In this document: piece by piece, positions 1,635-18,770 of the stretch
How positions within the stretch are numbered: position 1 is the stretch's first letter
How the letters are laid out: each line of letters begins with the position of its first letter
The notes under the pieces: generated by a model
Database searches by the model: none
Told to the model about the DNA's origin: nothing
The model's input: only the letters and a program-made list of their open reading frames with translations
From: a virus
Length of the DNA: 23,148 nucleotides
Reading direction: 5' to 3' (one strand)
IMG/VR virus record: IMGVR_UViG_3300044996_000832
Span: 1 to 23,148 of that record
Position numbers and translations under genes: made by a program

Positions 1635-1817
1635 ATGAACCTGAAATATATCCTTCTCTTTGCAATAATCCTAGGGCTGTTCTGGGGCGTGATCGTCGGT
1701 TTGATTGCCTGGGCAATTTGGGGGCCGGTCTGTGCGGCAAATGCGGCGGCAATCGCCTTCGTTGTCATATTCATGGTGGGTATATTCACCTTGGGCTTAT
1801 GCACAGGTTCAGCATAG
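1635..1817 (+). CDS. Small two-TM membrane protein
   Basis: A 60-aa protein starting at ATG 1635 behind AAAGGTGCAAAA, 13 bp after the previous stop. It is almost entirely hydrophobic: about residues 5-27 (ILLFAIILGLFWGVIVGLIAWAIW) and 33-56 (ANAAAIAFVVIFMVGIFTLGLCTG) form two membrane segments with a very short loop. Size and topology suit a holin-like or other small membrane protein, but no family signature is visible and no endolysin lies nearby in the window. The call rests on composition, start context and operon position. Confidence 0.6.
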   Translation: MNLKYILLFAIILGLFWGVIVGLIAWAIWGPVCAANAAAIAFVVIFMVGIFTLGLCTGSA

Positions 1818-1833
1818 CATAAATGGAGACCAA

Positions 1834-2172
1834 GTGATTAAATCGCCGGAATTTAGCCTCGAAATAGCCCTGATCTATTTGTTCCTATTCGTTTTTGGTT
1901 GGGGATACAACGCCGTGGTAGCCTGGGCGGAGCGTAAAGGGTATGCCGAGGGCTACATGAGCCTGATCGTCAGCCTGGGGGTGGCGGTAACGATCATTCC
2001 CTTAGTGATCATTGATTGGCAATTTTCTTTTCTTATGTTAGGCGCGTTCATGTGCAGTGGGATGCCGATGATCCTGGGGAGCATCTACCGCCACGTGACA
2101 GCACGCCGGCAGGAGCAAGAGCTTGAGCGACAAGCCGCGCGAATGGCCGAACAAGGCAAAGATGGCGCGTGA
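1834..2172 (+). CDS. Membrane protein with cytoplasmic coiled tail
   Basis: The frame is open from 1705, but the plausible start is GTG 1834, preceded by TGGAGACC and clear of the previous gene. The resulting 112-aa protein has hydrophobic segments at about residues 8-30 (SLEIALIYLFLFVFGWGYNAVVAW) and 42-75 (a double stretch around SLIVSLGVAVTIIPLVIIDW and FLMLGAFMCSGMPMI). A charged C-terminal helix follows (ARRQEQELERQAARMAEQ). This is a two- or three-pass membrane protein with a cytoplasmic coiled tail. It is the third consecutive small membrane gene. A holin or antiholin role is conceivable, but the family is not recognised. Confidence 0.58.
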   Translation: MIKSPEFSLEIALIYLFLFVFGWGYNAVVAWAERKGYAEGYMSLIVSLGVAVTIIPLVIIDWQFSFLMLGAFMCSGMPMILGSIYRHVTARRQEQELERQAARMAEQGKDGA

Positions 2173-2341
2173 CCTTGCGGCGCTGGAAGCGATGGCCGGC
2201 ATCCGCAGCCTACGCGCCGTGGTGGAAGGCGAGCGGGCATTCACCGAGAGTGAACGCCTGCGGCGCGAGGCGCGGGCGTTGATCAGTTTGCAGGAGATCG
2301 CCCGGCTATTGGCCGAGCAGGGCGCGGCGATAGATCGGTAG
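2123..2341 (+). CDS. Small Arg/Ala-rich helical hypothetical protein
   Basis: A small Arg/Ala/Glu-rich helical protein (ARDLAALEAMAGIRSLRAVVEGERAF...LRREARALISLQEIARLLAEQGAAIDR). A TTG start at 2123 has AGGAG seven bases upstream and gives 72 aa overlapping the membrane gene by 50 bp. An ATG at 2162 would give 59 aa and only an 11-bp overlap, but has a weaker ribosome site. The final ISLQEIARLLAEQG could be part of a helix-turn-helix, though only one helix is evident. The function is unknown. Confidence 0.5.
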   Translation: MSDKPREWPNKAKMARDLAALEAMAGIRSLRAVVEGERAFTESERLRREARALISLQEIARLLAEQGAAIDR

Positions 2342-2350
2342 GCAGGAACG

Positions 2351-2377
2351 AGTAATGAGTAAGAAGTAAGAAGTGAG
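2351..2377 (+). repeat. Degenerate heptad repeat (AGTAATG-type)
   Basis: The short spacer after the preceding gene consists of near-tandem heptads: AGTAATG, AGTAAG, AAGTAAG, AAGTGAG. A closely similar array (AGTAATC AGTGAGC AGTGAG) lies at 21025-21044, also between two genes. The two copies look like members of one dispersed repeat class. They contain no gene and no obvious promoter. Confidence 0.45.
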
Positions 2378-2430
2378 ACGTATCAATGGCCGCGGATATT
2401 GCGGAGCATGTTTACGAGAGGTGATAAAGC

Positions 2431-2814
2431 ATGAATCACGAATACGATGAGATGATCAGGAACATGCCAATGGGGCTGGATCGAGCCATGCTGCAAGTGC
2501 TTTCGTACCGGATGGGTCGGGGGAGGGCGATCGGGCGCGCGGAGCTGGTGGATGCGGTGCGGTTGATCGGCTACGATTCGCCGGAGCGGATGGTGCGGCA
2601 CTGCATCCGCGAGCTGCGGCGGGAGGGGCGCCTGATCTGCTCGGCGCCGGGAGAGGATGGCGGATATTACCTGGCGGAGACGCTGGCCGAGTTCGAGGAG
2701 TTCGCGGAGGCTGAGTTCCGCGCCAAGATCGCCGATATGAGCGAGACACTGGCGGCGATGAAGGCTGCGGCGCGGGCGGCTTTCGGCGAGGGTGTGCAGT
2801 TGGAGTTGATATAG
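2431..2814 (+). CDS. Winged-helix protein with C-terminal coiled coil
   Basis: A 127-aa protein starting at ATG 2431, preceded by GAGAGGTGATAAAGC. Residues about 14-75 (DRAMLQVLSYRMGRGRAIGRAELVDAV...DSPERMVRHCIRELRREGRLICS) read as a winged helix: helix 1, a RAELV turn, a recognition helix RMVRHCIREL, and a wing ending in GGYYLAET. Residues about 80-115 are an acidic/alanine helix likely to be a coiled coil. This is a common architecture for small phage DNA-binding proteins in replication or regulation modules. The target cannot be read from the sequence. Confidence 0.68.
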   Translation: MNHEYDEMIRNMPMGLDRAMLQVLSYRMGRGRAIGRAELVDAVRLIGYDSPERMVRHCIRELRREGRLICSAPGEDGGYYLAETLAEFEEFAEAEFRAKIADMSETLAAMKAAARAAFGEGVQLELI

Positions 2815-2827
2815 ACGGAGGAACAAC

Positions 2828-3022
2828 ATGGAATTCCCCAATGCCAAGGTGAGTGCGGTCAAGGCCAATTTCGTTACAGGGGTGATCAGCTTCACCATCC
2901 AGGTGGCGATCAGCGACGAGATGCAGTCCAGCGCCGAGGACCTGGCGCATTATGTGGATAAGGACGCCGGCAAGGTCGAGGTGCGGATCATCCCGCGGCA
3001 GCCGGCCTTGATCGGGAGCTGA
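2828..3022 (+). CDS. Conserved-looking small hypothetical protein
   Basis: A 64-aa protein with ATG 2828 behind ACGGAGGAACAAC. It alternates beta-prone stretches (AKVSAVKANFVTGVISFTIQVAI and GKVEVRIIPRQ) around an acidic central helix (SDEMQSSAEDLAHYV). I do not recognise it. The pattern would suit a small beta-alpha-beta fold. It follows the winged-helix gene by 13 bp and precedes the next gene by one base, so the three are probably co-transcribed. Confidence 0.6.
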   Translation: MEFPNAKVSAVKANFVTGVISFTIQVAISDEMQSSAEDLAHYVDKDAGKVEVRIIPRQPALIGS

Positions 3023-3023
3023 T

Positions 3024-3209
3024 ATGGCTGAACCGGAATCGATCGAGTTGCCGCGCTTGAAGGACCTGCCCGGGGCGGAGTGCTACAAAAGCATCGCTCC
3101 GATAGAAAAAGAGGATGTCTGCGCCTGGGCGAAGGAGCTCAAGGCAGATGTGGTGTACTGGTGGCGCGGAACGAAGATGGCATTCATTCCAATTGGAATG
3201 AAAAGCTAA
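3024..3209 (+). CDS. Small hypothetical protein overlying a palindrome
   Basis: A 61-aa protein beginning one base after the preceding stop, with GGGAGCTGAT as its ribosome site. It is acidic at the start and has a Trp/Tyr-rich end (CAWAKELKADVVYWWRGTKMAFIPIG). It is not a recognised family. Its last codons carry a perfect 20-bp DNA palindrome at 3183-3202, so this end may be shaped by a DNA- or RNA-level signal as well as by coding. Confidence 0.55.
   Translation: MAEPESIELPRLKDLPGAECYKSIAPIEKEDVCAWAKELKADVVYWWRGTKMAFIPIGMKS
3183..3202. promoter_or_regulatory. 20-bp perfect palindrome, candidate operator
   Basis: The 20 bases TTCATTCCAATTGGAATGAA read the same on both strands with no spacer. 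They overlap the last codons of a 61-aa gene, just before the only gene-free patch of this early region. The symmetry suits a dimeric repressor site; two winged-helix proteins are encoded upstream. No promoter was confidently placed beside it, so the role is inferred. Confidence 0.4.
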
Positions 3210-3223
3210 CATCATGTTTAAGG

Positions 3224-3247
3224 GTCGGCGCGCGAGCGAGCGCTGAC
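3224..3247 (+). promoter_or_regulatory. RNA hairpin 1 in leader region
   Basis: GTCGGCGC pairs with GCGCTGAC (8 bp with one G-U) around the loop GCGAGCGA. The following bases (ATATCTCTCTTTCT) are pyrimidine-rich but not a run of T, so this is at best a weak terminator. With the larger hairpin downstream it forms a structured untranslated segment. Confidence 0.4.
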
Positions 3248-3257
3248 ATATCTCTCT

Positions 3258-3308
3258 TTCTCCCCAAGCCGGTGGCCGCCTTTGGAAGAGGCGGCCACCC
3301 AGGGAGAA
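3258..3308 (+). promoter_or_regulatory. Large two-tier RNA hairpin before a ribosome site
   Basis: GGTGGCCGCCT (3271-3281) pairs perfectly with AGGCGGCCACC (3289-3299) around a 7-base loop. Outside an internal loop, TTCTCCC (3258-3264) pairs with GGGAGAA (3302-3308). No T-run follows; the ribosome site of the next gene (AAAGGAAGGAAG) starts a few bases later. It could protect the RNA end, attenuate transcription or control translation of the next gene. Confidence 0.5.
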
Positions 3309-3326
3309 GACGAAAGGAAGGAAGAA

Positions 3327-3539
3327 ATGTCCAAAAGAATTGTGAAATTGCAAGGTAATGAAAGCCAGAAGTCATTATCGGCGATGATCAATATGCTCAG
3401 CCGGATCATCGGGGATGAGGTCTATATCCGACCTGTCCTTGAGGTGGAAAGCAGCGAAGGAGTGCTTAAGGCGCTGGACGCTGTATTGGAAGGGGCCAGG
3501 ACAAAATTAAATAAAGAACAGACCAAGGAAGGGAATTGA
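3327..3539 (+). CDS. Small hypothetical protein after structured leader
   Basis: The frame is open from 3282, but the ATG at 3327 has an ideal AAAGGAAGGAAG site, giving 70 aa. The upstream extension would run through the large hairpin. The sequence (KRIVKLQGNESQKSLSAMINMLSRIIGDEVYIRPV...) suggests one amphipathic helix, a short beta pair and a second helix ending in a charged KLNKEQTKEGN tail. There is no recognised family. It is the first gene after the hairpin patch and is therefore the candidate target of any leader control. Confidence 0.55.
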   Translation: MSKRIVKLQGNESQKSLSAMINMLSRIIGDEVYIRPVLEVESSEGVLKALDAVLEGARTKLNKEQTKEGN

Positions 3540-3600
3540 TGCTCCTTCGGAGTGCGGGCGACTGGCGCGAATGCAAAAAGCAGGAGGCAGGAGGCGAGAC

Positions 3601-3918
3601 ATGAAACGCATCAATCAAGTGATCGCCAGGATGAGCTTCAAGGATTTCGTCGCGGCGGCGGAGAAATCGGACAGGGAACGACGAGCGACTGCCCTCGATG
3701 CTCGCGACGCGACGCGGAAAGCGGAAATCGAAAGAGAGAGGCAAGCGCGCGCCGAAAGGGAGCGTCGGGAGATCCAAAGCTTAGGCTACCTGGAATATTA
3801 CTCGTTGAGACATGCGCAATGGAAGGCAGAGAGATACCAAAGGCATCTTGCCTTTATCGAATATGAGCGAAAGGAAAGAGAGAAGCGATCAAGGAATAGG
3901 AGAAATGGAACCGGGTAA
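3601..3918 (+). CDS. Highly charged coiled-coil protein
   Basis: A 105-aa protein with ATG 3601 behind a duplicated AGGAGGCAGGAGGCGAGAC. Residues about 25-60 (DRERRATALDARDATRKAEIERERQARAERERREIQ) form a long, highly charged helix expected to be a coiled coil. A Tyr-rich stretch (YLEYYSLRHAQWKAERYQRHLAFIEYE) and a basic tail follow. The composition suggests nucleic-acid or protein binding, but no family is recognised. The C-terminal codons overlap the start of the next gene by 14 bp. Confidence 0.55.
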   Translation: MKRINQVIARMSFKDFVAAAEKSDRERRATALDARDATRKAEIERERQARAERERREIQSLGYLEYYSLRHAQWKAERYQRHLAFIEYERKEREKRSRNRRNGTG

Positions 3919-4609
3919 TGGTAGATATGCCGGCAGGATTAAATACTATGATCGTCGCGGGAATAAGGTTTATGTCCCGGCGATTAATCTTGGTTTCGGC
4001 CACATTCACTACTTGCGAAGGCGGTATTTCCGTACAGCAACGGCTTGCGAGGAATACGGCAAGCGCGTCGCGAAACGGTATCAAAAGCCTGGCCTCGAAG
4101 GTTGTTCGGGAACCTATCCCGAAAAGCGTTTGCCAAACGCTCCTAGAATGGCTTGGAAGACTGCTTGTAAGGTTTACAAGGCGAGAAAAATGCAAAGTGC
4201 TGCAACGATACGGTTAGCGGATAAACTGCGCCAGGAATACGCCCTATTGAATTCTTGGTCTAGGGCTTCAAGGGCTTGTGGGGTATTGACGCCGGCAGGA
4301 AAGCCCAATCCGCGGCTGGCTCAGATGATCGTCAACGGGTATGAGCCGAAGCTGGAGGAGACACGTCAGCGGTTGGGATTGCCGCCGATCTGCCCGAGCT
4401 GCAACCGGAGGTTGCCGCGTCCGCCGCGCGAGCTCCCGGAATGGCCGAAACAAGCGGTGCAGTTCCTGGCCGAGCGGGAAGAGGCTGTGGGTGCGCTAGA
4501 CCATCTGCGGGTCTATGGAAGGAACGGAAAGCGGGCACGGCTTCCGGTCCGTGAAACATCGCGAAAAAGTGAGCTTGAGCGAAATGCGTTGCAAATCATC
4601 GAATCATAA
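3905..4609 (+). CDS. Putative DNA-binding protein with arm-like and HTH-like regions
   Basis: A 234-aa basic protein; ATG 3905 follows AATAGGAGAA, and the open frame upstream lies inside the previous gene. The N-terminal part (GRYAGRIKYYDRRGNKVYVPAINLG...YFRTATACEEYGKRVAKRY) resembles the three-stranded arm or AP2-like DNA-binding domains of integrases and homing proteins. The centre (LLNSWSRASRACGVLTPAGKPNPRLAQMIVNGYEP) reads like a helix-turn-helix. ICPSCNRRLPR is a single Cys-x2-Cys knuckle without a partner pair. No catalytic domain is visible. The domain assignments are by eye and tentative. It ends the early cluster before the AT-rich gap. Confidence 0.6.
   Translation: MEPGNGRYAGRIKYYDRRGNKVYVPAINLGFGHIHYLRRRYFRTATACEEYGKRVAKRYQKPGLEGCSGTYPEKRLPNAPRMAWKTACKVYKARKMQSAATIRLADKLRQEYALLNSWSRASRACGVLTPAGKPNPRLAQMIVNGYEPKLEETRQRLGLPPICPSCNRRLPRPPRELPEWPKQAVQFLAEREEAVGALDHLRVYGRNGKRARLPVRETSRKSELERNALQIIES
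4548..4559 (+). repeat. 12-bp direct repeat, copy 1
   Basis: TCCGTGAAACAT occurs here near the end of the preceding gene and again, identical, at 4691-4702, 143 bp downstream. The pair brackets the AT-rich gap with the TG microsatellite. It could be a protein-binding iteron or a remnant duplication. Confidence 0.35.
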
Positions 4610-6422: not shown

Positions 6423-6827
6423 ATGTCTGAAAATAATGAATGTTGGGCCGTAGTTGATCTAATGGGGCACATCACCATTGCAGGACGTGTCACTAAGCCT
6501 GGTGAATATGGTGGCCTATGGCAGATTGACATCCCAAAGGAAGAAAGTTATTGCACAGAATTTTTTAGCAGCCAATCGGTTTATCGTATCCGAATTGTCT
6601 CAGAAGAAATCGCCCGCGCTTATGCTCTCCAACAGCATGAAGTGATTGAATATAATGCGCCAATTGTGACACGAGCTGAATATGAAAACGCAATAGCCCT
6701 GGTACAGGAGAAATACATACAGCTCAAGCAACAGAATGAAATATTGAAAGAGCGCCTTATTGCCATCAATGCCTTACCAGCTCCCAGCGAGGATGGGGAA
6801 GGAGTCTATATTCGTCCTGATGTTTGA
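6423..6827 (+). CDS. AT-rich accessory protein of a conserved phage type
   Basis: A 134-aa protein with ATG 6423 after AAAGGATTG. The N-terminus (CWAVVDLMGHITIAGRVTKPGEYGGLWQIDIP) and SVYRIRIVSEEIARAYA resemble a small beta-rich protein often seen in phage and bacterial genomes without assigned function, as recalled from general experience and not checked. The second half is a helix likely to form a coiled coil (YENAIALVQEKYIQLKQQNEILKERL). The gene is clearly more AT-rich than its terminase neighbours, suggesting later acquisition. It overlaps the large terminase start by 8 bp. Confidence 0.6.
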   Translation: MSENNECWAVVDLMGHITIAGRVTKPGEYGGLWQIDIPKEESYCTEFFSSQSVYRIRIVSEEIARAYALQQHEVIEYNAPIVTRAEYENAIALVQEKYIQLKQQNEILKERLIAINALPAPSEDGEGVYIRPDV

Positions 6828-8412
6828 TATACGCGCGGCGGACCGCGTCACCCGCTTTATCGAATTGCTCAAGCTGACCGGCGACTTCTACGGCCAGCCG
6901 TTCCAGTTGATGGACTGGCAGCGGAAGATCGTTCGGGATGTTTACGGTACGCTGCTGCCGCGCGGGGTGCGGCAATACCGCTACGTGTACGTAGAGACGG
7001 CCAAGAAGAACGCCAAGAGCCAGCTCGGAAGTGCGGTGGGGCTGAAGCATCTTTACGATAAGACCGAACCGCATGGGCAGATTGTGCTGTGCGCCGGGGA
7101 CCGCGAGCAGGCAAGGGTGGACATCTATGAGCCGCTGGTCGCGATGATCGAGCAGGATGAGGAGCTGCGTGCCCGTGTCAAGATCCGCGATAGTCTGCGC
7201 GAGATCGAAAACAGGGAAACCGGAACGCTCTTGAAGGTGGTCTCTGCCGAAGCCTACACCAAACATGGCTGGAATATCTCCTGCTGCATCTTCGACGAGC
7301 TGCACGTCCAGCCCAACCGCGCCTTATATGACACAATGATAAAAGGCGCGGGACTGGCACGCCGGCAACCGATCTGGTGGTTTCTAACCACATCCGGCGA
7401 TGACCCAGATCGTGTCTCAATCTGCTGGGAGGTGCATAGTAAAGCCGAGGCGGTGCTAAAGGCGCGCGCCGCGGGCGACACGGCCAAGGATATTCCCACG
7501 TGGTACCCTGTCATCTACGCTTACAACGGGGAGGACATCTGGAACGAGGCCAATTGGTACGCGGCGAATCCATCACTAGATATTTCCCTACGCATTGAAG
7601 ACCTGCGTGACCTGGCGAAGGAAGCTAAACTTGCGCCTGAGGATGAGCGCCTGTTTCGATGGCTGCACCTAAGCCAATGGCCAACCACCAAGTTGACCTC
7701 CTGGCTGCCACTCGATCTCTTTGATGCCACGGTGGGGACGTGGACCCGGAAAGACATGGCCGGAGAGGATTGCTATCTGGGCGGCGACTTTTCCACCACA
7801 ACAGACCTTTCGGCGATCTGCCTGATTTTTCCACCGCAGCGGGAGCATGACGACTGGCGGGTGTGCTGGGATTGCTGGATCCCGGAACAGGACATGCAGG
7901 CGCGGATCAAAGAAGATCGAGTGCCTTACGACAAGTGGGCGCAGGATGGCTGGATCATGCCGACCGAGGGCGACATGATCGATTACACCTCGATCGAGGA
8001 GCACATCCTTGAATTGAAAGCGCAATTCAACATCAAAGAAATGGGCAGCGACCGCAGCTTTGCCGCCATGCTGCTCCAGCGGTTGACCCAAACCGGCATC
8101 GCCTGCGTGGATGTGCCGCAGCGGGTGGCGGAGCTGACGGACCCGATGAATGAGATCGAGATCCAACTGCGTTCGAAGAAGGTTACGCATGAGAATAACC
8201 CCTTGGTGCGCTGGGCCTTCGGCAACACCAGTATATTTGTCAACGGCAACCACCAAAAGAAGTACGTCAAGCAACACCACGGCAAAACGGAGCTGCGTGC
8301 GAAAAGGATTGATCCGATCGCAGCCTGGGTGTGCGGCATGGCGCGCGCCAAGTTCTACGAGGCCGGTTCTGGGCCTTCGGTGTATGAGGATCGGGGAATA
8401 CTAAAGTTGTGA
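6820..8412 (+). CDS. terL: Terminase large subunit
   Basis: The ATP-driven DNA packaging motor and nuclease, 530 aa from ATG 6820. The frame is open from 6760, but MFDIRAADRVTRFIELLK is the usual family beginning. An alternative ATG is at 6793; AAGGAG lies rather far upstream of 6820. The Walker A variant is TAKKNAKSQ (about 60-68), with Ala where many relatives have Gly. Walker B is CCIFDE (about 155-160), and TTSGDD is the coupling motif. The nuclease domain has GGDFSTTTDLSA (D323, D329), MGSDRS and RIDPIAAW (D498), giving the acidic set for two-metal cleavage. The length is normal for Terminase_1-type proteins. Confidence 0.95.
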   Translation: MFDIRAADRVTRFIELLKLTGDFYGQPFQLMDWQRKIVRDVYGTLLPRGVRQYRYVYVETAKKNAKSQLGSAVGLKHLYDKTEPHGQIVLCAGDREQARVDIYEPLVAMIEQDEELRARVKIRDSLREIENRETGTLLKVVSAEAYTKHGWNISCCIFDELHVQPNRALYDTMIKGAGLARRQPIWWFLTTSGDDPDRVSICWEVHSKAEAVLKARAAGDTAKDIPTWYPVIYAYNGEDIWNEANWYAANPSLDISLRIEDLRDLAKEAKLAPEDERLFRWLHLSQWPTTKLTSWLPLDLFDATVGTWTRKDMAGEDCYLGGDFSTTTDLSAICLIFPPQREHDDWRVCWDCWIPEQDMQARIKEDRVPYDKWAQDGWIMPTEGDMIDYTSIEEHILELKAQFNIKEMGSDRSFAAMLLQRLTQTGIACVDVPQRVAELTDPMNEIEIQLRSKKVTHENNPLVRWAFGNTSIFVNGNHQKKYVKQHHGKTELRAKRIDPIAAWVCGMARAKFYEAGSGPSVYEDRGILKL

Positions 8413-8423
8413 GACGGCGAGAA

Positions 8424-9623
8424 ATGAGACAACAGCAAACTCTTTTTGAGAATTCGCGATTAACGCTTGCGGAAGCGATTGATATTACTGTTGCATCACT
8501 TAATACCTATGCAGCAAAGTACCGGCATTGGGCCATTGCATATAGTGGCGGTAAAGATAGCAGCGCTCTGGTCTCGGTCGTTTTATGGTTGATTGCCCAG
8601 GGCAGAATCATTGCCCCCGAATCGCTTACTGTTTTATATTCCGATACACGTCAGGAAATCCCCCCTCTTGAAATTGGCGCTAAAAAAACACTCGAAACTG
8701 TGCTCCAGAAGGGATATATAGCACGGATTGTTTTGCCTGATTTGGATAACCGTTATTTTGTCTATATGCTTGGGCGAGGTGTCCCGCCACCCAATAATAA
8801 TACACTCCGCTGGTGTACAGCAAAGATCAAGATTGAGCCAATGATAAACGCCTTGAAAACATTGCGAGATGAACATGGGGAAAAGTTTCTTATGCTTACC
8901 GGGGTGCGTATTGGAGAAAGCGTCATTCGGGATACCAGGATCGCTTTGAGTTGTAACCGTAATGCCGCTGAATGTGGACAAGGATGGTTTCAGAAAACTA
9001 CACCGAAAAGCGTCGCCGATACACTCGCCCCATTGCTCCACTGGCGAGTATGCCATATCTGGGACTGGCTACTATTTGAAGCGCCTGCAATTATTCCATC
9101 CGTAATGTTTGTGGCACAGGTTTATGGAGGGGAAGCGGCCGAAGAAATCCACGCCCGGACAGGTTGTATTGGATGTCCACTGGCAAGTAAAGATTTAGCG
9201 TTGGATCATGTATTATCAATCCCGGAATGGTCCTATCTGCAACCACTAAAACGAATGCGGCCACTCTATATTGAACTTCGCAGTTTCAGACATCGGAAAC
9301 AAAAAGACGGAGAACGCAATAAGAACGGCAACTATTCTAGCCATCCGAGCCGCAAGGGGCCGTTAATTTTGGAGGCCCGCGAATGGGCACTTGGTGAAGT
9401 TTTGGGAGTGCAGAATGAAATCAATGCCAGGGCCGATAAACTTGGCAAGCCAATGATCGACTTGATCAATGCTGAGGAAGAAAGAAGAATTAGAGAATTG
9501 ATCACATTGCGAACTTATCCACAAAGGTGGAGCGACGCCGATCCAAACGCTGACATATTGATTCCGCAAACTTATCGAAACGGAGATATTCAGGCCATAT
9601 TACCGTTGGAGTTCGCAAGATGA
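8424..9623 (+). CDS. DndC/PAPS-reductase-like sulfurtransferase
   Basis: A 399-aa PP-loop ATPase of the phosphoadenosine-phosphosulfate reductase superfamily, closest by motif to DndC, the enzyme that activates the DNA backbone for phosphorothioation. Visible motifs: YSGGKDSS (40-47, adenylating P-loop), VLYSDTRQEIPP (70-81), LRWCTAKIKIEP (128-139), LTGVRIGESVIR (158-169), CGQGWF (184-189) and TGCIGCPL (246-253). C131, C177, C184, C248 and C251 are candidate Fe-S ligands. The ATG at 8424 is preferred; GTG 8409 is possible. It is wedged between large terminase and portal and is AT-rich (about 40% GC in 8461-8520 versus 60% in 7681-7740, hand-counted). No DndD/E, cysteine desulfurase or restriction partner is visible. 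It could modify phage DNA or another substrate; tRNA thiolation is less likely from the motifs. Confidence 0.82.
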   Translation: MRQQQTLFENSRLTLAEAIDITVASLNTYAAKYRHWAIAYSGGKDSSALVSVVLWLIAQGRIIAPESLTVLYSDTRQEIPPLEIGAKKTLETVLQKGYIARIVLPDLDNRYFVYMLGRGVPPPNNNTLRWCTAKIKIEPMINALKTLRDEHGEKFLMLTGVRIGESVIRDTRIALSCNRNAAECGQGWFQKTTPKSVADTLAPLLHWRVCHIWDWLLFEAPAIIPSVMFVAQVYGGEAAEEIHARTGCIGCPLASKDLALDHVLSIPEWSYLQPLKRMRPLYIELRSFRHRKQKDGERNKNGNYSSHPSRKGPLILEAREWALGEVLGVQNEINARADKLGKPMIDLINAEEERRIRELITLRTYPQRWSDADPNADILIPQTYRNGDIQAILPLEFAR

Positions 9624-9641: not shown

Positions 9642-9665
9642 TTGAAAAATGTTGAAAATTTTCAA
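9642..9665. promoter_or_regulatory. Operator-like TTGAAAA repeats
   Basis: TTGAAAA occurs at 9642-9648 and 9652-9658, followed by TTTTCAA at 9659-9665, so 9652-9665 is a perfect 14-bp palindrome overlapping the promoter's -35 element. Direct and inverted half-sites at about one helical turn suit cooperative repressor or activator binding. Confidence 0.4.
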
Positions 9666-9679
9666 AATCGTGCTATACT
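9652..9679 (+). promoter_or_regulatory. Sigma70-type promoter
   Basis: TTGAAA (9652-9657), a 16-bp spacer and TATACT (9674-9679), with TGC just before the -10 as an extended element. Each hexamer differs from consensus at one base. The predicted transcript starts near 9686 and runs into a hairpin terminator, then toward the portal and capsid genes. It is the strongest promoter I found in the window. Confidence 0.65.
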
Positions 9680-9829: not shown

Positions 9830-10012
9830 ATGCAAATGAAGCCCGATTGTAATGACTGGTTCTACTATGGCGGCCTGGCGATGCTTTTCGCCGGGCTGTC
9901 TGTGGGTGTATCCATTGCGGTGGCCTTGATTGTCGTTGGGGCGCTCCTGGCGGCGGTGGCCGTGAGCAACAGCTACGTCGCGTTATGGCACAGCAGCCGG
10001 AAGGCGGAGTGA
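9830..10012 (+). CDS. Small membrane protein upstream of portal
   Basis: A 60-aa protein; ATG 9830 or 9836 could start it, and neither has a clear Shine-Dalgarno because the palindromic repeat lies directly upstream. Residues about 11-50 (FYYGGLAMLFAGLSVGVSIAVALIVVGALLAAVAVSNSYVALW) form one long or two short membrane segments, with a charged HSSRKAE end. Its stop overlaps the portal ATG, and its 3' end provides AAGGCGGAG for the portal. The function is unknown; small membrane proteins before portal genes occur in several phages, but a holin role cannot be shown. Confidence 0.62.
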   Translation: MQMKPDCNDWFYYGGLAMLFAGLSVGVSIAVALIVVGALLAAVAVSNSYVALWHSSRKAE

Positions 10013-11646
10013 TGTTACTCAAACCGTCCATGTTCATGCTGGCCAACGCGAATACACCGGTGGATCAAGAAGCCCGGGGGCGCGTGGGCGCGGTGAGGGA
10101 AAAGAGCCAGAGCAATGAGCCTATCACCGTTGAAAACGCCATCACTGTATCGGGCGTGATCGCAATCATTACACTGATCGCCCAGGATACGGCCAGCCTG
10201 CCATTGATCCTTTATGGGCGACAAAGCGGGGGCGGACGGTTTCGATATATTAGCAATCCCTATTACAGCCTGATGCACGACGCGCCAAACCCAGAAATGA
10301 GTGCGCTGAATTTCCGCGAGCTGATCGCAGGGCATTTGATCGCCTGGGGAAACTTCTACGCGCAGATGATCGGGGACAAGAGCGGCGTGGTCCGGGAGCT
10401 ATGGCCGCTGCGCCCGGACCGCATGACTGTGCAACGGGTCAAAGGCGAGAAGCTCTATAAATACATCACATCAAACGGGCAGCCACGCACTTTCTTGCGG
10501 GATGAGATCCTGCATATCCCGGCTTTTGGCTTCGATGGGCTGGTGGGCTATAGCCGAATCAGCCTGGCGCGCAATGCGATCGGCCTGGCGCTGGCGACCG
10601 AGAAATTTGGCTCGAAATTCTTCGCGAAGGATGCAAGGCCGGGCATCGTATTGGAGCATCCGAAGCAACTCAGCACTAAGGCGGCACAAAACCTGAAAAC
10701 CTCGTTCATCGAGGAGCATGAGGGAACAGAGAACTCGCATGGCGTCTTCGTGGCCGAGGAGGGGATGAAAGTGGTAGAGGTCGGCATCCCGCCGGAGGAT
10801 GCGCAGTTCCTGGAAACGCGCAAATTCCAGTTGCAAGAGATCAACCGCATCCTGGGACCGTTGCCGCCGCACATGCTGGGTGACGTGGAGCGCAGCACGA
10901 GCTGGGGCAGCGGGATCGACAGCCAGGAGCAGGGATATGTCAACCATACATTGCGGGCGTATACCGTGCGCATCGAGCAGGCACTTGGGCAGCAATTGCT
11001 GCTAGAGACCGACCGGGCGCGCGGGGCATATTTTGAGCATTTATTCGATGGCTTACTGCGCGGCGATATTGCCACGCGCTACGAGGCATATACCAAGGCT
11101 ATCACGGTGGCGTGCTTCATGAGCCGCAACGAGGCGCGCATACGGGAGAATTTAAACCCCGCGCCGGGGCTGGACGAATTCCTGGTGCCGCAGAACATGG
11201 CGATAGTGGGCAACGGCGCGCCGGCCAACCAATCGGCATTCGATCCACTTTGGCAAGATGTGCTGGGGCGGGTGGTGAAACGCGAGGCCAACGACGTGAG
11301 GGGCGCAGCGCGGCGATTCCTGGCGAAAGGTCAGACTGAAGAGTTCGCTGCCTGGCTGGATGCGTTCTACAGCCAGGAACAACCGGCTTTCATCCGGCGC
11401 CAGGCCGAGCCGTTGCTGGTGTCCATGCGCAACCTGTGGGCCATCGCGGGCGAGGCGGGGCTGCAAGCCTGTTTCGACGCTTATTTGGCAGCGCAACGCG
11501 CGGCGCTAGAAGGCGTGAAGAGCGCCGAAGAGGTAGAGGGGCTTGCCGAGCGTTGGAGCGCCGAAAATCCCGGACGCCTGGCGGAGCAAGTGCGCTTGAT
11601 CCTGCTGGATGAATATCTAAGTCACGCCGGAGGGCAGGATGCCTAA
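10012..11646 (+). CDS. HK97-type portal protein
   Basis: A 544-aa portal subunit, the dodecameric ring at the capsid vertex through which DNA enters. ATG 10012 follows AAGGCGGAG and overlaps the stop of the membrane gene. HK97-type features include ITVENAITVSGVIAIITLIAQDTASLPLILY near the N-terminus, NPYYSLMHDAPNPEMSALNFRELIAGHLIAWGNFYA, LWPLRPDRM, DEILHIPAFGFDGLVGYSRISLARNAIGLA, and GPLPPHMLGDVERSTSWGSGIDSQEQGYVNHTL (fragments; regions about 45-320). The last 130 residues are helical and beyond the core family, perhaps a species-specific C-terminal extension. It overlaps the protease gene by 8 bp. Confidence 0.95.
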   Translation: MLLKPSMFMLANANTPVDQEARGRVGAVREKSQSNEPITVENAITVSGVIAIITLIAQDTASLPLILYGRQSGGGRFRYISNPYYSLMHDAPNPEMSALNFRELIAGHLIAWGNFYAQMIGDKSGVVRELWPLRPDRMTVQRVKGEKLYKYITSNGQPRTFLRDEILHIPAFGFDGLVGYSRISLARNAIGLALATEKFGSKFFAKDARPGIVLEHPKQLSTKAAQNLKTSFIEEHEGTENSHGVFVAEEGMKVVEVGIPPEDAQFLETRKFQLQEINRILGPLPPHMLGDVERSTSWGSGIDSQEQGYVNHTLRAYTVRIEQALGQQLLLETDRARGAYFEHLFDGLLRGDIATRYEAYTKAITVACFMSRNEARIRENLNPAPGLDEFLVPQNMAIVGNGAPANQSAFDPLWQDVLGRVVKREANDVRGAARRFLAKGQTEEFAAWLDAFYSQEQPAFIRRQAEPLLVSMRNLWAIAGEAGLQACFDAYLAAQRAALEGVKSAEEVEGLAERWSAENPGRLAEQVRLILLDEYLSHAGGQDA

Positions 11647-15767: not shown

Positions 15768-16832
15768 ATGAGTGGGCTGATTTTGCCAGGTGCTAGAGGA
15801 CGTCCGGTAGCAACGGCACAATTGACCTGCTACGCAATAGGGGACGATGGCGATCAGCGCAAGGGGTTGGCGCAAAAGTATACTGTCCTGTCAACGGGAC
15901 AGTATTCCGGGACGGTCAACTTGGATGTGCCTGAGTATGCGGCGGCCACTTTGTCGTTCACCGCAGCCACAAAGACGATTGCAGATAGCGCGTCTGGGTT
16001 GGCCTCGGTCAAGACCGGCGACACGATCCGTATTGTCGGTTCTGTTTCCAACGATGGTGTATATACGGTGGCAACGGGTGGAGTTGCCGGCGCGGTTGTT
16101 GTCAACGAAAGTTTGGTGGATGAGGTGGCAGGGGCGTACATTACCATTTGTAAGCGGGTGAGCAAATCCAACAACTGTGTGCTTGACCAAAACACGCTCA
16201 AGATGTGGATGCGGTACTCGTCTTATGGCGATTTGGTCGGCGCAGCCTCAGATGGCAAAATGAATTGGTACAATGCTGCCACGTGCTACACTCTCCATCC
16301 TGCTGCGGCGGATTTGGCAATGGTTGCAGGCAACATTCTACGCATTACAGGCACAGATGAGCACACGCGATTTTTCGCTGGCGAGGTTTTATTCTGCTCC
16401 GGTTTTGCCAACGCTGTGAACAACCTGCCAGGATTGCGAGTACTGTCTGTATCCTATGTTGGAGGTAACACTGACATTGTGGTTGACCCTGGCAATCAAG
16501 TGTTAGTGGCGGAAGTGGCTGGCGGCAGTCGGGCAATTAAGGTCGTATGCTCCAACATTTTTGCCTATGCTGCGGCTGCTTGCGCGGCTGCGCTTGGCGG
16601 CTATACTGACTGGCGTGTTCCCAACATCAACGAGGCGAACTCCATTCGAGATTGTGAGCAACCCAACGCTAGGCCAGATGCAGTCGCATTTCCAACTTGG
16701 GTATCCAGTTATTATTGGACGGCCACCACGAAGGCTAATGGGACAACTAGCGCCGAGTTGTGCGCCTATGGCGGTGGTGGCAGCAACGATGTGAAAACAG
16801 CCAACGATTATTTGGTTTTAGTGCGAGGATAA
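15768..16832 (+). CDS. DUF1566/C-type-lectin-like adhesin with inserted beta domain
   Basis: A 354-aa probable surface adhesin with GGAGGCCTAA before ATG 15768. The C-terminus (GGYTDWRVPNINEANSI, then FPTWVSSYYWTATTK, and YLVLVRG) matches the DUF1566 pattern: Gly-Tyr-x-Asp-Trp-Arg-x-Pro, YW[ST][AS]T and a terminal VR. This domain is related to the C-type-lectin fold used in phage receptor binding. The beginning of the same fold (KMNWYNAATCYTL, about 164-175) is separated from its end by about 90 residues resembling an earlier beta domain (62-126). Both copies end with a Glu-x-AGG/AGA motif (DEVAGAYITI; AEVAGGSRAI). Receptor binding is inferred. Confidence 0.7.
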   Translation: MSGLILPGARGRPVATAQLTCYAIGDDGDQRKGLAQKYTVLSTGQYSGTVNLDVPEYAAATLSFTAATKTIADSASGLASVKTGDTIRIVGSVSNDGVYTVATGGVAGAVVVNESLVDEVAGAYITICKRVSKSNNCVLDQNTLKMWMRYSSYGDLVGAASDGKMNWYNAATCYTLHPAAADLAMVAGNILRITGTDEHTRFFAGEVLFCSGFANAVNNLPGLRVLSVSYVGGNTDIVVDPGNQVLVAEVAGGSRAIKVVCSNIFAYAAAACAAALGGYTDWRVPNINEANSIRDCEQPNARPDAVAFPTWVSSYYWTATTKANGTTSAELCAYGGGGSNDVKTANDYLVLVRG

Positions 16833-16836
16833 CTTG

Positions 16837-17118
16837 GTGGCTACTGATTATCAGAAAATGTCTAAGCCGCAACTGATTGCTCTGGTGGAGCAACTTGTGA
16901 GTCAAATACCTGTGCCAGAACCAGAGCCGATACTACTCGAAGCCAAAGATGGTGAGTTCGGTCAGATCAGCCGTGTCTGGAGAAATCCTGACGGCACGGT
17001 TGAACGATGGGACTGGACGTACAAAAAGAATGGTGCGGTAGACACGATTACTTGCACCATTGATGGCAAAATGGTGAAAAGAATCACTCACAATAAGAAC
17101 GGAGAGGCCTCGTGCTAA
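16837..17118 (+). CDS. Small hypothetical protein between adhesin genes
   Basis: A 93-aa protein from GTG 16837, placed eight bases after GCGAGG; a TTG at 16834 is an alternative. The N-terminus is a helix (YQKMSKPQLIALVEQLVSQIP), followed by a proline-rich hinge (PVPEPEPILL) and a beta-hairpin-rich end (GQISRVWRNPDGTVERWDWTYKKNGAVDTITC). No family is recognised. Its position between two adhesin-like genes, overlapping the second by 7 bp, suggests an assembly chaperone or an attachment adaptor for the following protein. Confidence 0.55.
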   Translation: MATDYQKMSKPQLIALVEQLVSQIPVPEPEPILLEAKDGEFGQISRVWRNPDGTVERWDWTYKKNGAVDTITCTIDGKMVKRITHNKNGEASC

Positions 17119-18770
17119 TTCCGCTCATCGGGCAAGCGTCCACGCCAGAGCAAACATATCAGGAAAAAGTTCTGGCAATTCCCGACCTAGTGGCCTATTG
17201 GCCGTTGGACGGGGATTATGCTGACCTGTCTGGTAACGGATTTGACGGCAGTCCATCGTTGTCAGGCTTGTCCTTTGTGGATGGGGTAGGGGATGGCGGA
17301 GAGGCGTGCCACTTTGATGGCGTGGCTGGATGGGTGGACTTGTTTTCATCGGGTTTGGCAAACGCAATTGATAGAGACGAAGGAACAATGCTGCTCCATA
17401 TCCGCATGACACCCGTCGTGTCGGAAGGTGTGGATATGAAGAGAATTTTCTACCTGTCCAACGCGGATGGCTCGCAGCGCATCCTGGTTCAGAAGCATGA
17501 CAACGCACGTGAGGTGCGTGTGTACTATTTGTATGGTGCTAACCCACTTGTGTGGAAATCGGTAAAATACCAGCATATCTCGGCTGAATTTGTAGATTTG
17601 GTAGTGCAGTGGTCGAAAGCAAACGATTACCTGCGAATATACGGCGGCACTACACTCCTGGATGGGGTAAGTACTTTGCCATCCTTGACCGATGTACCAA
17701 CAATCATCGAGTTTGGTAAATATCCGCCCGGAGGCGAGTTCTATTCTGGTGACTTGGCGCACGTTGCTATTTGGTCTCGATTGCTTACGGTTGACGAACG
17801 TACAACCTTAGCATTTCGGGAGTATCCTTGCCGGGATGGGTATCTTGGAGGCTCGATTACCAAAGGCTCCAACGCCTCAGACGATGCACACAAATTCCGT
17901 AACCTTGTTCACAGTTGGTTGGCGGTCACATATCCCTACGCATTCCAGGAAGTGTCTTGGTCGGCGGTAACTGGCAGCCATTCCTGGCAAAACTTGTTTA
18001 GGCTGGCGGCTTTGATAGCTCTCCGACCCCGCACGATTGTCATTGATTCAGCGGTCAACGATGAGGACGATAATTGCAGCCGCTATTCGGCTGAGGCGAT
18101 TATTCGACTCCTACGCGTCGCTTTGCCGAATACCAAGCTCATTGGCTTACTCAATATCCGAGTGGCTGATGTGCATGTGGATGACCCGACTAATACCGAC
18201 CAGCAGATACACGATGATTGGGTAGCGTTGCTCACGCACTACAGCATCCCTTACGCTGATTTCGCCGCAGAAGTGCAGGCCAATGTGCCTGTACCTTATC
18301 ATCTGACGCAATACCTCGCCGATACCGTTCACCCAAACGACTTCGGTCATGCCACGATTGCCACTTTAGTTGAGGCGCAGATGGCGGCTTTTCTGCCTCC
18401 GGTGTCGTTGCCTGCCCGTTTGCGAGCGGACAGTGCGGATTTCGAGGCTACGCCGCAGGTCGTTTATGCCAATACTTGCTCACGTACTGGTACATGGATT
18501 GTGGATGTGAATGGAGCTTACGTGTCCAGTGAGGTTGGGGCTACGATGACACTTCCTGCTCCTGTTGCGTTTCGCAGCCTGGGCATAAGTGATGGCGTGG
18601 AAGGTGATGCGCCTGTACCTCCAAGCGTCGGTGTGTCGTTGAATGGCGGCGCGTATGTAAGCATGTTCCTATGGGAAAATGGTAAAGATTTAGGAAGTGT
18701 TGCTGTGCGTACTGTGTCCGTCAAATTATTGAGTGGCACGGTAAAAATACAATCGTTTTGGTTTATCTGA
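17112..18770 (+). CDS. LamG-like plus SGNH hydrolase surface protein
   Basis: A 552-aa protein from GTG 17112 after GGAGAGG. Residues about 27-225 (LVAYWPLDGDYADLSGNGFDG...FDGVAGWVDL...GDLAHVAIWSRLLTVDERTTL) form a concanavalin/LamG-like carbohydrate-binding domain. Residues about 240-428 form an SGNH/GDSL hydrolase: GGSITKG (nucleophile S248), TGSHSW (G288), SAVND (N316) and DTVHPNDFGH (D404, H407), so the full S-G-N-H set is present. The last 115 residues are beta-rich. Such an enzyme could deacylate or deacetylate a surface polysaccharide during host contact. The gene is AT-richer than the capsid and tail genes, consistent with cassette exchange. The substrate is unknown. Confidence 0.8.
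   Translation: MLIPLIGQASTPEQTYQEKVLAIPDLVAYWPLDGDYADLSGNGFDGSPSLSGLSFVDGVGDGGEACHFDGVAGWVDLFSSGLANAIDRDEGTMLLHIRMTPVVSEGVDMKRIFYLSNADGSQRILVQKHDNAREVRVYYLYGANPLVWKSVKYQHISAEFVDLVVQWSKANDYLRIYGGTTLLDGVSTLPSLTDVPTIIEFGKYPPGGEFYSGDLAHVAIWSRLLTVDERTTLAFREYPCRDGYLGGSITKGSNASDDAHKFRNLVHSWLAVTYPYAFQEVSWSAVTGSHSWQNLFRLAALIALRPRTIVIDSAVNDEDDNCSRYSAEAIIRLLRVALPNTKLIGLLNIRVADVHVDDPTNTDQQIHDDWVALLTHYSIPYADFAAEVQANVPVPYHLTQYLADTVHPNDFGHATIATLVEAQMAAFLPPVSLPARLRADSADFEATPQVVYANTCSRTGTWIVDVNGAYVSSEVGATMTLPAPVAFRSLGISDGVEGDAPVPPSVGVSLNGGAYVSMFLWENGKDLGSVAVRTVSVKLLSGTVKIQSFWFI

Follow-up and report, generated by a model that had tools for sequence, protein, structure and literature searches.

Does a gene resembling PAPS reductases, lodged between the terminase large subunit (TerL) and portal genes of a phage, serve sulfur metabolism or modify DNA, and could its product act alone? 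Phage and virome genes labelled 'PAPS reductase/cysH' are commonly taken as sulfur-metabolism genes. The gene studied here lies in an IMG/VR record of 23,148 bases (a genome fragment, analysed whole and called the window below), and a sequence-only reading had proposed that it encodes a stand-alone, DndC-like enzyme that could act on phage DNA, perhaps at the time of packaging. It belongs to PHROG_12882, a family previously known by name only; our literature search, with preprints and most subscription papers outside its scope, yielded no paper that places the family in dnd islands or describes its distinct cysteine set. Our main new result is that one PHROG_12882 clade resides inside complete dnd islands of filamentous cyanobacteria, beside canonical DndC.

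Family membership, conserved residues and fold

The open reading frame at 8424-9623 is genuine and not a chance one, on the basis of PHROG_12882 and PADLOC matches, at least 86 homologous stretches in IMG/VR, and conserved cysteines and PP-loop (Table 1). The best profile was PHROG_12882 (490.7 bits, E 5.9e-147), matched over its full length (residues 3-393 on profile positions 2-402 of 404). When the profile search proposed for this protein was run against DndC, SspD and CysH, DndC came out best with PADLOC models (111.7 bits, E 1.1e-32), followed by BrxP (56.4 bits) and SspD (33.1 bits), so that SspD is not the best match among the PAPS-reductase families; the match to BrxP, of BREX type 4, covered 150 of 779 positions, short of full length. 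The NCBIfam model of DndC (TIGR03183) gave 106.8 bits (E 1.2e-30), below its curated equivalog cut-off of 290.4 bits, and no CysH equivalog model was among the NCBIfam matches listed at E <= 1. The Pfam match to PF01507 reached 28.3 bits, and a PDB sequence search with the 399-aa protein returned no significant match.

Judged by these profiles, DndC is the closest characterised family, and PHROG_12882 is a sister group of DndC, neither DndC itself nor CysH. The earlier proposal of a DndC-like identity thus stood as regards kinship with DndC rather than CysH (PADLOC, TIGR03183), but a strict "DndC" label is not supported, because the protein scores too low for the equivalog and has no counterpart of the dyad loop of DndC. 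Relatives from isolated phages (Pseudomonas phages Dobby and phiC725A, Rhizobium phage RR1-A and Microcystis phage Mae-JY29; 48-51% identity) are labelled 'PAPS reductase' or 'phosphoadenosine phosphosulfate reductase' in GenBank and PHROG.

Table 1 Coordinates of the PHROG_12882 gene, its conserved elements and its neighbours in the window.
Feature	Position	Strand	Basis or remark
DndC-like PP-loop / Fe-S sulfurtransferase (predicted), PHROG_12882 family, 399 aa	8424..9623	+	ATG 8424, stop 9623
PP-loop SGGKDS, residues 41-46, ATP pyrophosphatase motif	8544..8561	+	each of S41-S46 conserved in 99% of 79 homologues
Loop GRGVPPPNNNTLRWCT, residues 117-132, contains C131, aligned with the proposed DndC DNA-specificity loop	8772..8819	+	alignment, conservation
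Segment GVRIGES..RDTRI..SCNRNAAECGQGWFQ, residues 160-190, with invariant C177 and C184	8901..8993	+	conservation, model pLDDT
Invariant C210 (HWRVC)	9051..9053	+	79/79 homologues
Invariant C248-x-x-C251, aligned with DndC Cys280/Cys283	9165..9176	+	conservation, alignment
TerL (PF20441/PF03354), upstream neighbour	6760..8412	+	Pfam, PHROG
Portal protein (PF04860, E 3.7e-95), downstream neighbour	9985..11646	+	Pfam, PHROG
Promoter-like site TTGAAA-16-TATACT, AT-rich gap 3' of gene	9652..9679	+	consensus match only

The four motifs on which that proposal had been built (YSGGKDSS, LRWCT, LTGVRIGES and TGCIGCPL) are all found in the protein. It has exactly six cysteines (C131, C177, C184, C210, C248 and C251), each of them invariant in the 79 homologues over which conservation was computed. 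C131, C248 and C251 align with Cys146, Cys280 and Cys283 of DndC, which are the Fe-S ligands of that enzyme (PMC12193691). DndC also has a specific cysteine dyad thought to pass sulfur on (PMC10853773), formed by Cys262 and Cys273 (PMC12193691); the loop that holds it (ECPMVIDDSTPSC) is a gap in the PHROG_12882 family alignment, and C177, C184 and C210 are the family's own cysteines, in place of this dyad.

In DndC, the loop between GxGYP and RWC is predicted to read the target sequence via three residues (PMC12193691). The flanks of the equivalent loop (GRGVPPP and RWCT) are nearly invariant across PHROG_12882, and its tip (residues 124-127) differs by subtype, with SNT as the commonest form, NNNT in the window gene and KNR elsewhere. 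Such a variable tip between fixed flanks is, as a correlation, the pattern that a target-specificity loop would be expected to show. On a tentative comparison with DndC loops (PMC12193691), SNT might resemble NQT, which goes with GATC, and KNR might resemble RxK, which goes with GGCC.

The AlphaFold model of the protein (pLDDT 85.6) has a PP-loop fold, with structural matches at Z 12-15 that comprise APS reductases (2goy, 12.6; 4bwv, 13.4), CysD (1zun, 15.3), TtuA (12.9) and NcsA (13.2), and also FAD synthase; DndC was not among the structures listed in this search. The modelled fold points to the PP-loop ATPase superfamily only, a level that cannot choose a substrate. As for the Fe-S site, which had been singled out for structure prediction, invariant C177 and C184 lie in the sole internal segment of the model with pLDDT < 50 (residues 165-186). 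This segment is a candidate mobile catalytic or metal-binding loop, and its low pLDDT may indicate that it depends on a ligand.

The gap between TerL and portal

As had been noticed from the sequence, the gene interrupts the packaging module, with TerL on one side and the portal gene on the other, and is much more AT-rich than both (GC 0.463 versus 0.575 and 0.596, respectively). The difference is larger at third codon positions (GC3 0.427 versus 0.735 for TerL and 0.726 for portal), which fits a recent arrival. A second possible start, GTG at 8409, would share 4 bases (GTGA) with the end of TerL, stop codon included, so that translation of the gene is likely coupled to that of TerL. Matches to the promoter consensus in the region numbered four, with 2.1 expected by chance.

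Five relatives of the window TerL have the portal gene ~110-290 bases past the TerL match, with no PHROG_12882 gene between them, while in a sixth (L180) ~2.7 kb of other genes separate TerL from portal; in the contig that holds a 77% identical copy of the window gene, this copy lies upstream of an HNH-TerL-portal array. Since five relatives lack the insert and the sixth has unrelated cargo, the TerL-portal gap is a cargo site, and a position in the late module is therefore a poor guide to the time at which the enzyme acts. The idea that this placement hints at action during packaging was accordingly rejected, all the more since relatives of the gene lie in DNA-modification modules. The L180 cargo (1734-4194) encodes a 479-aa calcineurin-type phosphoesterase-like protein, a small membrane-like protein and a 181-aa protein, as named from their sequences alone.

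Just 5' of TerL, a 134-aa ORF (WAVVDLMGHITIAGRV..., 6423-6827) is AT-rich like the PHROG_12882 gene (GC3 0.38); homologues of this ORF occur near the PHROG_12882 gene in 6 further viral contigs, and the two may therefore travel together. The structural module of the window encodes an Lcl_C-domain protein (15768-16832) that may belong to the virion surface or a fibre, and a GDSL-lipase-like protein (17112-18770) that may be a host-glycan esterase. Searches of the 23-kb record for DndD, DndE and cysteine desulfurase found none of them, and 10 of its larger ORFs had no PADLOC match. There were no tRNA genes within the window, an Rfam search gave no match, and near-identical phage DNA was not found in GenBank.

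Methyltransferase neighbours in phages and dnd islands in cyanobacteria

Genes around the 79 viral homologues, clustered with a simple ORF caller, recurrently encode a long C5-cytosine methyltransferase, a SNF2 helicase/N6-N4 methyltransferase fusion, DUF5131, DnaB and ASCH-like proteins. Methyltransferases are enriched next to the PHROG_12882 gene (21/157 positions at ±1 versus 21/594 at ±4-8, p 1.5e-5), they lie within 26 bp of it in 12/79 loci (touching or overlapping it in 11 of these), and DNA methyltransferases recognised by Pfam make up ~20 of 86 adjacent same-strand genes. A methyltransferase gene also overlaps the PHROG_12882 gene in RR1-A, Dobby and Mae-JY29, a C5 methyltransferase gene lies directly 3' of it in phiC725A, and the order helicase-methyltransferase, C5 methyltransferase, PAPS reductase-like gene is repeated in Hymenobacter and Desertivirga prophages (L147, L117). 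The viral relatives are thus usually found in DNA-modification modules, often with an overlapping methyltransferase gene.

The stand-alone character first noted in the window extends to 55 phage records, most of which may be fragments: no DndD above cut-off, no DndE and no Aminotran_5 desulfurase was found in them. Moreover, DndD above cut-off is missing from 12 of 13 non-cyanobacterial host genomes that carry the gene; the enzyme therefore does not need DndD there and cannot generally borrow it. Two side observations concern these loci. DUF5131, with a CDHCYAE-type cysteine motif, occurs near the PHROG_12882 gene in 17/79 viral loci (e.g. L003, L067 and L068) and is a possible functional partner, and in L054 (7158-9740) an intein, with matches to Hint and LAGLIDADG, apparently interrupts the C5-cytosine methyltransferase beside the PHROG_12882 gene.

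A genome scan for PHROG_12882 returned mostly filamentous cyanobacteria, in which the gene is divergent from a ~700-aa gene and lies beside dnd genes. In one such island (L097), NCBIfam identified DndE, DndD, DndC, DndB and TIGR04096 (dnd_rel_methyl, a DNA-phosphorothioation-associated methyltransferase), all above cut-off; here the PHROG_12882 member scores 138.9 on TIGR03183 and the neighbouring DndC 678.6. These islands thus hold canonical DndC with the PHROG_12882 protein as a second enzyme. Among the 65 genomes of one cyanobacterial order (that of G061), DndE is present in 20 and the PHROG_12882 gene in 21, including all 20 with DndE, and 44 have neither (Fisher p 7e-16, shared descent ignored); the single positive genome without DndE has a 93-residue partial match only. 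PHROG_12882 copies are intact in 14/15 genomes with full DndD versus 5/11 with broken DndD (p 0.02), showing that reading-frame decay of the gene accompanies DndD decay.

This association is confined to a lineage. In an even draw across Cyanobacteria, only 2 of 96 DndE-bearing genomes carry the gene, which is therefore a lineage-specific accessory of dnd islands; its absence from the other 94 led us to reject the idea that it partners Dnd throughout the phylum. In the tree the copies from islands group together (SH-aLRT 95), and the sister of their clade is a copy from a virus contig. The free tree places this clade nested inside phages and suggests that cyanobacteria took the gene from them; in an AU test, a basal position of the cyanobacterial clade (with L072) was also compatible with the data (p 0.62). 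In 12 cyanobacterial loci a HARE-HTH single-domain protein of ~84 aa is encoded, mostly just 3' of the PHROG_12882 gene (L097, 5508-5762; L107, L115 and L109). HARE domains occur in restriction-linked proteins.

Proposed function and comparison with known systems

Gene context and the DndC-like loop both suggest DNA as the target, and the evidence points to a role of PHROG_12882 in DNA modification, not metabolism; with methyltransferase operons in phages and dnd islands in cyanobacteria, the role on DNA that had been suggested from the window looks likely. We propose that the gene is a moron and that its product, from a sister family of DndC, is an orphan DNA sulfurtransferase. By analogy with DndC, for which activation by ATP, a host source of sulfur and sulfur transfer onto DNA are established, the PP-loop would activate the target with ATP, and a [4Fe-4S] centre on C131, C248, C251 and probably one of C177, C184 and C210 would be supplied with sulfur by a cysteine desulfurase of the host (IscS/SufS). 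With the GxGVPPP..RWCT loop docked on DNA, the sulfur would be placed there, a phosphorothioate in the backbone being the most likely product. The enzyme of most phages would act jointly with their DNA methyltransferases and hide the phage genome from the nucleases of the host, and in the window phage the gene would have moved into the TerL-portal cargo site, to be translated probably together with TerL.

That the window gene is an orphan DNA sulfurtransferase used as an anti-restriction modification is a reading to which we give an even chance, its chemistry and target being deduced from context and homology. To our knowledge, known phosphorothioation requires DndD and DndE, SspB and SspC, or BREX partners, and the absence of DndD and DndE from the phage records, the missing dyad loop and the islands already equipped with canonical DndC all count against it, as do the lineage-specific occurrence among Cyanobacteria and a fold match no closer than the PP-loop superfamily. 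A broader proposal, which we advance tentatively and consider more doubtful, is single-enzyme DNA sulfuration: phages would sulfurate their own DNA with none of these partners, using a six-cysteine centre and target loops that differ by subtype (SNT, NNNT, KNR), in concert with DNA methyltransferases, and the enzyme would have been exchanged between phages and cyanobacterial dnd islands, there to serve as a second sulfurating enzyme.

Alternatively, the enzyme could thiolate RNA or a small molecule (like TtcA, TtuA, NcsA or LarE), for example to protect tRNA during infection. The C plus CxxC arrangement of PHROG_12882 is known in TtcA and TtuA, and the fold matches include the [4Fe-4S] enzymes TtuA and NcsA, but the sequence profiles strongly favour DndC and the gene is found next to genes for DNA methyltransferases and helicases and to dnd genes, with no tRNA genes in the window, which makes this alternative unlikely. 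A protein that mimics DndC and so blocks or diverts the phosphorothioation complexes of the host as a counter-defence, catalysing no modification alone, would fit both the location within cyanobacterial dnd islands and a DndC-like loop without the dyad; we see a slim likelihood in it, given a PP-loop and six cysteines whose (near) invariance suggests catalysis, and non-cyanobacterial hosts that, lacking DndD in 12 of 13 cases, would usually offer no target. Just as slim is the likelihood of a base-thiolating enzyme that, together with the C5 or N6/N4 methyltransferase encoded next to it, puts sulfur on a base and leaves the backbone unaltered: recurrent methyltransferase overlaps and an invariant cysteine set distinct from that of DndC speak for it, but many members, the window gene included, have no adjacent methyltransferase, and we know of no precedent for such a product. 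The least likely rival, an assimilatory PAPS/APS reductase (CysH) acting as an auxiliary metabolic gene for sulfur supply, was rejected as very improbable despite the PF01507 match, the database labels and published readings of such phage genes as cysH or sulfur metabolism (PMC11309003, PMC5463345), since no CysH equivalog was listed while DndC matched at 1.2e-30, the last cysteine is C251 of 399, so that there is no equivalent of the catalytic cysteine near the C terminus of CysH, and the neighbours are not sulfur-assimilation genes.

For PHROG_12882, despite the 'PAPS reductase/cysH' label, the evidence points to DNA modification instead of sulfur metabolism. If the orphan enzyme does sulfurate DNA alone, it breaks the rule that phosphorothioation takes a multi-protein complex, and phages would have for sulfur what their orphan methyltransferases are for methylation. 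Concrete systems for deletion and assay are the branch in dnd islands and the isolated phages Dobby, RR1-A and phiC725A.

Compared with known systems, DndC (TIGR03183) shares with PHROG_12882, by alignment, the PP-loop, the GxG[VY]P..RWCT loop, the equivalents of Cys146, Cys280 and Cys283 and a related C-terminal region, whereas it is longer (~530 versus ~400 aa), has the dyad loop and does not have the invariant C177, C184 and C210 of the family, which in phages stands alone. BrxP and SspD, other PAPS-reductase-like phosphorothioation enzymes, have a PP-loop domain homologous to the 399-aa protein but match it much more weakly than DndC does, and the window protein has no DUF4007 fusion and no visible Brx or Ssp partners. 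In Dobby, phiC725A, RR1-A and Mae-JY29 the gene is part of early regions or regions for DNA modification and mostly has a DNA methyltransferase as its neighbour, in contrast to its place between TerL and portal in the window. Phage DndC-like genes have been noted, without tests, as possible anti-restriction factors (PMC13299392, PMC12429752); among them, the 'DndC' of Sinorhizobium phage AP-20-A (PHROG_424, PMC13299392) is likewise phage-borne, DndC-like and suspected of anti-restriction, but belongs to a different, more distant family, on which the window protein scores 53.8 bits.
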